This document shows, in pieces, positions 24,234 to 26,296 of a stretch of 64,000 bases of DNA. Made by a program: the position numbers and the translations under genes. The DNA comes from Spirochaetota bacterium (GTDB lineage Bacteria > Spirochaetota > UBA4802 > JAFGDQ01). The notes beneath the pieces were generated by a model. That model was not told the origin of the DNA. It saw nothing but the letters and a program-made list of their open reading frames with translations, and made no database searches. Position 1 is the stretch's first letter, and the number at the start of each line of letters is the position of its first letter. The stretch lies in NCBI GenBank assembly GCA_034190085.1, contig JAXHTS010000073.1, positions 1 through 64,000 on the forward strand, in the 5' to 3' direction.

Positions 24234-25154
24234 CTATTTCATAAAATCTAGGATCCACCTGGTTAATCCGATTGAGACCAATATCGCTCCCTCTGTACGC
24301 GAAAGTAACCACCCAGTCCTCAGGAATAGAACAACCAGAATAACCATTCCTGATAGCATAAGAAGCGATTGAATCGCCAACGGATCGATCTCTAAGGGAT
24401 TTATAATCCCTGCTAATCCTAAAACACCCAGAATATTAAAGAGATCACTACCGATCAAATTACCAGCAGATATGCCATGCTTGCCCTTTAGAACAGCTAC
24501 AATAGAAGTAACCATTTCTGGAGCGGAGGTGCCGGCTGCAACGATTGTAACACCAATAATCCATTCAGACACTCCTATATACCTAGCGATTTCTGAGGCG
24601 GACTCAACCAAAAAATGCCCCCCCGCTATTATTATTATTATGCTGACTGGTAATATTATGTAATCTATGGATGTTGCCCTTTCATGCAATATCCCCTCTT
24701 CATCCATGACCTCCTTTTGGACAAAAAGGAATACGAGATACCCAAAAAGTAGAGAGGCTAATATAACCCCCTCCCATCTTTTAAGCTGATGGTCATGGAA
24801 AAACAGCAAAAGGAGCAGAGTGACGCCAATCATAAATAATCCATCCCTATATACAAGCCTATGGGATGTTTCAATACCCTTTATTATGGCCACGGTACCG
24901 AGTATAAAACCCAGATTAAAGATATTGGAGCCTACTATATTCCCAACAGAGATGTTTGCATAACCCTTGATGCTAGCGCCAATAGTAACCGCAAATTCAG
25001 GCGCTGAAGTACCAAAGGCAACTACAGTAAGTCCAACTACAAGCTCTGACACACCAAAGGTCTCAGCAATTCTACTTGCTGACTCTACCAGATATTTTGC
25101 TCCATACCATAAGGCTAATATTGATACTATAAGTAAAATAATATCTATTATCAT
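24234..25154 (-). CDS. Ca2+/Na+ antiporter (CaCA family, YrbG-like)
   Basis: A 306-residue, roughly ten-helix antiporter. The two inverted alpha-repeats that bind the cation are both present: VAFGTSAPEF...VGNIVGSNIFN (residues about 45-85) and VAAGTSAPEM...AGNLIGSDLFN (about 195-240). The acidic residues of both GTSAPE motifs are intact. The ATG overlaps the TGA of the upstream dehydrogenase by four bases, so the two are translationally coupled. No biochemical link between the two is obvious. Confidence 0.92.
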   Translation of the reverse strand: MIIDIILLIVSILALWYGAKYLVESASRIAETFGVSELVVGLTVVAFGTSAPEFAVTIGASIKGYANISVGNIVGSNIFNLGFILGTVAIIKGIETSHRLVYRDGLFMIGVTLLLLLFFHDHQLKRWEGVILASLLFGYLVFLFVQKEVMDEEGILHERATSIDYIILPVSIIIIIAGGHFLVESASEIARYIGVSEWIIGVTIVAAGTSAPEMVTSIVAVLKGKHGISAGNLIGSDLFNILGVLGLAGIINPLEIDPLAIQSLLMLSGMVILVVLFLRTGWLLSRTEGAILVSIGLTRWILDFMK

Positions 25155-26158
25155 AATATTGACTCATACTTTTTAGAGTATAATGATTTATATGCGGAAT
25201 CGATTAGCCTCAGCTCTCTTCGTATTCTTTCCAAAGAAGGTTGCCAGCTCCTTTGAGAGATATAGGCTTCAATGAATGCTTTATGCATTGCCTTAAATCC
25301 GAGAAAATCCATTGGATTGATTATTGATAATCCCTTCCTCTTGCCATAAACATATACAAAGAGTCCATTGCTCTCAAAAGTAATAACCCCCTCAGTGCCG
25401 TATACCTTGGATAATCCTACACCCTTTAGTGAATTGGGTATTCTCCATGAATGGAGAAGTCTGCCAATCATACCATTCTCAAATTCTACATTTATTATCA
25501 TGGAGTCTTCAAATGGGATGTTTGTATCATATTCGATGTCTGGTTTACTGGCCAGCACCTGAACAGGGGATGCACCAGCCAATGAAACCAGAGCGTTGAT
25601 CCAATGAACGCCACCCTCAAGAAGGGCTCCACCACCCACTATACTTGCATCCGAGCGCCATCCGGATATTTTATCCCTATTTGTTTTATTTAAATCGATA
25701 ATAAGCGGATTCCCAATATAATCCCCTTCGATATATTCCCTAACCCTCTTAATAAAGGGTTTATAATAATAATTCTCAGCAACAGTGCAATTTACCCTAT
25801 TCTTAGCAACAGCTCTCTCTATATCATTCAATTCCTCGATATTTCGCGTAATCGGTTTTTCAATAATTATATCTTTATTGTTATCTGCGTTTAAGATTGC
25901 CAATTTGGAATGAGAATCTGGAGGTGTTGTAATGAAAGCGATATCAAATAAATCTGAAACAGCAGCATCTTCATAGCTTCCGAAGGAGATTCTCCCACCA
26001 TATTTCGAAACATATTCCTTGGACTTTGAAAGATTTCTGCTGGCAAAGGATATATCAATATCAGAGTGGATCTTTTTTAATATCTTTGCATGCCTGGCCG
26101 CAATATTACCACAACCGAAAAAACATATATGTGGTAATTTATCTTTACTTAAGTGAAT
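25151..26158 (-). CDS. Gfo/Idh/MocA-family NAD(P)-dependent oxidoreductase with apparent ATT start
   Basis: From TTG 25903 the protein would lack its cofactor domain, but the same frame stays open upstream to a TAG at 26175-26173 and encodes a full Rossmann fold: HICFFGCGNIAARHAKIL (GxGxxA motif), DIAFITTPPDSHSK, then EKPITRN with the family EKP motif. No ATG, GTG or TTG exists in that upstream part. GAGGAG (26171-26166) is followed at 4 and 7 bases by two ATT codons, so initiation at ATT 26158 (or 26161) is proposed, giving 335 residues. The C-terminal domain (GGGALLEGGVHWINAL) is normal. The substrate, usually a sugar, is unknown. Coupled to the antiporter gene. Confidence 0.75.
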   Translation of the reverse strand: MHLSKDKLPHICFFGCGNIAARHAKILKKIHSDIDISFASRNLSKSKEYVSKYGGRISFGSYEDAAVSDLFDIAFITTPPDSHSKLAILNADNNKDIIIEKPITRNIEELNDIERAVAKNRVNCTVAENYYYKPFIKRVREYIEGDYIGNPLIIDLNKTNRDKISGWRSDASIVGGGALLEGGVHWINALVSLAGASPVQVLASKPDIEYDTNIPFEDSMIINVEFENGMIGRLLHSWRIPNSLKGVGLSKVYGTEGVITFESNGLFVYVYGKRKGLSIINPMDFLGFKAMHKAFIEAYISQRSWQPSLERIRRELRLIDSAYKSLYSKKYESIL

Positions 26159-26296
26159 AATCGAACTCCTCTATGTTTTGAATGCTCATATAATATTTAT
26201 ACTTTTATCTACGTGTCAACTACTAACCTAAGATTTCCAGAATTTTGTAATAACGATTATTTAAAAAAAAAGATAGATTAATTCAAATAAAATATC

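Follow-up and report, generated by a model that had tools for sequence, protein, structure and literature searches.

A probable AUU start codon in place of an ancestral ATG in a Spirochaetota Gfo/Idh/MocA-family oxidoreductase gene

An oxidoreductase gene on the minus strand of the 64,000-nt stretch of Spirochaetota DNA analysed here (the window) probably starts at an ATT codon that arose in this lineage from an ATG and lowers the gene's output. In the mechanism we propose, the ancestral ATG of an otherwise intact gene would have changed to ATT (26158), transcription would begin at a promoter just upstream, and the Shine-Dalgarno (SD) sequence AGGAG would place the 30S subunit. Initiator tRNA would then decode the AUU inefficiently and, by analogy with AUU reporters in other bacteria, less oxidoreductase would be made, and perhaps less of the antiporter coupled to it by an ATGA overlap. 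Gene finders restricted to ATG, GTG and TTG would either label the gene a pseudogene or predict a 250-residue product that lacks most of the cofactor domain. The case shows how a canonical start can become AUU within a family; as a single case in a single draft genome, it can be told from an error only with independent reads.

The oxidoreductase frame extends from stop to stop over 339 codons (26170..25151, minus strand) with no internal stops. After the stop TAG (26173-26171) its codons read AGG AGT TCG ATT ATT CAC TTA AGT AAA GAT AAA TTA CCA CAT ATA TGT TTT TTC GGT TGT GGT, and the first in-frame ATG, GTG or TTG is a TTG at 25903-25901 (minus strand). The distance from upstream stop to first canonical start is thus 89 codons, compared with a 99.5th percentile of 46 codons for 1422 gene-like frames in 2.13 Mb of the genome. 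Residues 15-131 of the frame match positions 3-119 (of 120) of the Pfam profile GFO_IDH_MocA (PF01408) with E=2.4e-14, which puts the beginning of the NAD-binding domain upstream of every canonical start. TTG 25903 itself sits inside the Rossmann domain, and a product started there would have 250 residues and lack most of that fold; no usable ATG, GTG or TTG lies near the conserved N-terminus. A preliminary description of this DNA had reported a complete Rossmann domain upstream of any canonical start, with GAGGAG at 26171-26166 and ATTATT at 26161-26156, and our analysis bears out both the observation and the coordinates.

That description took the first ATT (26159..26161, minus strand) as the start. 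An ATT start is indeed the best-supported reading, but SD spacing and alignment point to the second ATT, one codon downstream (26156..26158, minus strand), as the better candidate. The AGGAG (26166..26170, minus strand; GAGGAG from 26171) lies 7 nt from the second ATT and 4 nt from the first. As a reference for spacing and SD strength we used 430 genes of the same genome with an unambiguous ATG. AGGAG-to-ATG spacing in this genome peaks at 6-8 nt (22 cases at 6 nt, 14 at 7 nt and 12 at 8 nt), and a spacing of 4 nt occurs in 2 of 92 pairs versus 14 of 92 at 7 nt, which favours the second ATT and makes the first less likely. The second ATT also aligns without gaps with the ATG of an orthologue from the same family (G001), and its SD falls within the optimum of the genome. 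With the anti-SD taken as canonical, since no 16S rRNA gene was found in the assembly, the predicted duplex energy is -8.6 kcal/mol against a median of -5.9, and 75% of the 430 ATG genes have a weaker or equal SD. Nevertheless, this is a five-base SD and not an extended one of the kind that might compensate for a weak codon; the value for infC of the same genome is -12.6 kcal/mol.

Comparison with orthologues, which the preliminary description had proposed as a check, showed ATG to be the conserved start. We searched 46 genomes of the order, from uncultured Spirochaetota (MAGs), and found an orthologue in 16, the focal genome counted. In each of the other 15, an in-frame ATG precedes the invariant Pro of the motif LPxICFxGCG by 4-8 codons. 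In G001 this ATG stands 8 codons before the Pro, with an in-frame stop 5 codons before it; ATT 26158 is likewise 8 codons from the Pro, with its preceding stop 5 codons away. Since these distances are identical and the alignment is gap-free, ATT 26158 appears to be the positional homologue of an ATG. None of the 15 orthologues has ATT at this codon. The AUU is therefore private to one draft genome and not a conserved regulatory feature like the non-AUG starts of infC, sigR and cvfC1, and it probably reflects a recent change. Copies from the same species or genus were found neither in the 46 genomes nor in a wider contig scan, which may omit the focal genome. A Gemmatimonadetes relative of the oxidoreductase (L053, near 5644) likewise shows no ATG, GTG or TTG ahead of its Rossmann motif; a GAGGGG with a CTG behind it points to CTG as the start there.

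Read from ATT 26158, the gene (25151..26158, minus strand) would encode a 335-residue NAD(P)-dependent oxidoreductase of the Gfo/Idh/MocA family with PF01408 and PF22725 domains. The N-terminal Rossmann and C-terminal domains both score above their gathering thresholds, and the protein has relatives in the PDB. It shares the Rossmann plus C-terminal alpha/beta architecture and the EKP motif with inositol dehydrogenase and glucose-fructose oxidoreductase; however, the protein falls far below the cut-off of every NCBIfam equivalog model, so that none of them gives it a substrate. Along its whole length it is 51-62% identical to 14 orthologues, and it keeps the family's invariant residues, including GCGxIA and EKP. 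Its branch (0.39 changes per site) compares with 0.37 and 0.35 for two relatives from the same family, and identity in the N-terminal part is 0.51, against 0.51 and 0.52 in those two. A search for marks of a pseudogene (stops, frameshifts, relaxed constraint) found the altered start codon alone. On these comparisons the gene is intact and evolves no faster than its sisters.

These data bear on the possibility that ATG-to-ATT was a deleterious or neutral mutation that abolished expression in this strain, leaving a gene that is turning into a pseudogene. The preliminary description had reasoned that relatives with ATG at the same codon would mark a recently broken gene. All 15 relatives do have ATG, G001 at exactly this codon; the frame, however, is intact and not accelerated, so that a broken gene is not demonstrated. 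The private ATT agrees with a loss of this kind, as does the very low output from an ATT start in Listeria (PMC13068326), and the gene is dispensable because most genomes of the order do without an orthologue. Against it, the 335 codons carry no other lesion, the invariant motifs are kept, the branch is no longer than those of relatives, and SD and promoter are intact. The invariant residues, the ordinary branch length and the antiporter overlap kept in relatives exclude old decay, but recent loss would leave just such a picture and is thus only weakly disfavoured. We regard it as unlikely, while giving it some weight.

The predicted promoter is a sigma-70-like TTGACA-N18-TATTAT with 11 of 12 matches at 26190..26219 (minus strand), with a predicted transcript start near 26183. 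Such matches (at least 11/12) are roughly ten times denser upstream of starts than within genes of this genome (0.217 per kb, from 14 hits, in the 150 nt before starts; 0.022 per kb, from 11 hits, within genes). Predicted folding of the leader is unremarkable (z = -1.29), and a search of the window for RNA families returned one tRNA and nothing else. A hairpin of nine pairs (TTACCACA...TTGTGGTAA) at window positions 26105-26138 (minus strand), which begins some 20 nt after the ATT and within the coding sequence, probably arises incidentally from the LP...GCG codons.

We also considered the sole nearby ATG, at 26189, which is out of frame and opens a 14-codon frame (MSIQNIEEFDYSLK-stop; 26145..26189, minus strand), as a leader or a source of frameshifting. 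Translation could begin there and pass into the main frame through a +1 shift around CTT-AAG-TAA or an uncalled indel. The short frame does run through the SD and ends at a TAA right after the two ATTs, and CTT-A could conceivably allow a +1 slip. However, a protein made in this way would have 18 residues before the invariant Pro rather than the 4-8 of the orthologues, with no resemblance to them, and no orthologue resembles the MSIQNIEEFDYSLK frame. ATG 26189 moreover has no SD, and given the transcript start predicted near 26183 it would lie outside the mRNA. We consider this route highly improbable.

Alternatively, the true codon may be ATG, or another base may be wrong, through an error of sequencing or assembly. 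A single wrong base would be enough, and the genome, with 86 contigs, 96% completeness and no 16S rRNA found, behaves like a draft; its relatives are MAGs. Nevertheless, the site lies 26 kb inside a 113.5-kb contig, and the half of the genome that we surveyed contains few clearly broken frames. By our own estimate, a substitution error hitting a start codon is also a priori rarer than true non-AUG starts, of which a genome would have a handful. Taken together, these points make an error improbable.

To place the probable AUU start in its genomic setting, we screened half of the genome (2.13 Mb, 1422 gene-like frames) for an SD followed by a near-cognate codon and coding sequence ahead of the first canonical start. 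The oxidoreductase was the one clean gene in this half, with no second clean case. Near-cognate codons were not enriched behind SDs (29 of 964, 3.0%, versus 172 of 5906, 2.9%, for other codons), and we therefore rejected widespread non-AUG starting in this genome. An intact copy of a multicopy GxxExxY (PDDEXK_3) gene (L264; G000:C9:3346-3723) lacks all three canonical start codons throughout. Depending on the copy (L264 and paralogues L265-L268), GTG, GCG or GGG precedes its conserved ATT, and other copies are broken, so we did not count it as a second case. Candidates on contigs C15, C40 and C27 resemble broken frames of repeat-rich, cytochrome-like or transposase genes.

Downstream, the oxidoreductase gene overlaps a calcium/sodium antiporter gene (24234..25154, minus strand; Pfam Na_Ca_ex, TIGR00367 above cut-off) by the ATGA at 25154-25151, as had been described. 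The same 4-base overlap is found in two relatives (G002 and G017; L035, 6987-6990, and L045, 6990-6993, the latter with a TTG start), so that the operon probably predates the ATT. Elsewhere in the order, in families represented by L034, L038, L040 and L041, a long frame lies directly upstream of the oxidoreductase orthologue, so that the operon context varies by family; in L034 and L038 this frame carries an N-terminal GSGFGGAFAA dinucleotide-binding motif.

Could the AUU have been selected in this lineage to throttle the oxidoreductase-antiporter operon and couple its output to IF3 levels? If so, it would add to the instances, beyond infC, in which metabolism is regulated through the start codon. 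The preliminary description had hinted at such infC-type control, which the private ATT and the ATG of all 15 orthologues leave unsupported: with the codon not conserved and the SD not extended, two features expected of a regulatory start are missing, and we strongly doubt it. Non-AUG starts nonetheless appear to be in use in this clade, as seen at infC. In the same genome, infC (L161, G000 contig C85) reads GGGAGG-TTCGTT-ATA with no canonical start near the N-terminus and appears to start at ATA. Across the order infC often lacks ATG, GTG and TTG near its N-terminus: read by eye, an SD-ATA arrangement occurs at about 9 of 30 loci (among L134-L163), and one locus has ATC. This points to IF3 starts of the AUA type, as in S. 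aureus.

Among known systems, infC of Escherichia coli, which encodes IF3, starts at an AUU behind an SD; the gene is controlled by the protein it encodes, and its start is widely non-AUG. The oxidoreductase resembles it in the probable AUU behind an SD and differs in having orthologues that start at ATG and nothing that ties it to feedback by IF3. AUU starts are unusual, but already known outside infC, and the view that they are known mainly from that gene is dated: cvfC1 of Staphylococcus aureus has a conserved AUU start, and ccpN, citZ and infC of that species have AUA starts (PMC13009471). Reporters with non-AUG starts, the cvfC1 AUU included, gave about 10% of the AUG output in poor medium (PMC13009471), and Streptomyces sigR, which has a GTC start, is subject to repression by IF3 (PMC5472188). 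Like our gene as we read it, cvfC1 is the first gene of an operon and has an AUU behind a suitably spaced SD; its AUU and extended SD are, however, conserved among staphylococci and its initiation was mapped, whereas the ATT described here is private and its SD has five bases. The ATG-to-ATT and ATG-to-ATA mutants of rsbW in Listeria monocytogenes likewise combine a one-base change of an ancestral ATG with an otherwise intact operon gene, and the ATT mutants make much less protein (PMC13068326); these arose in the laboratory under acid challenge and their effect was measured. Finally, citZ of the S. aureus NCTC 8325 lineage (PMC13009471) starts at AUA rather than AUU, and its initiation was measured; it too is a metabolic gene with a lineage-specific non-AUG start, as we propose for the oxidoreductase.
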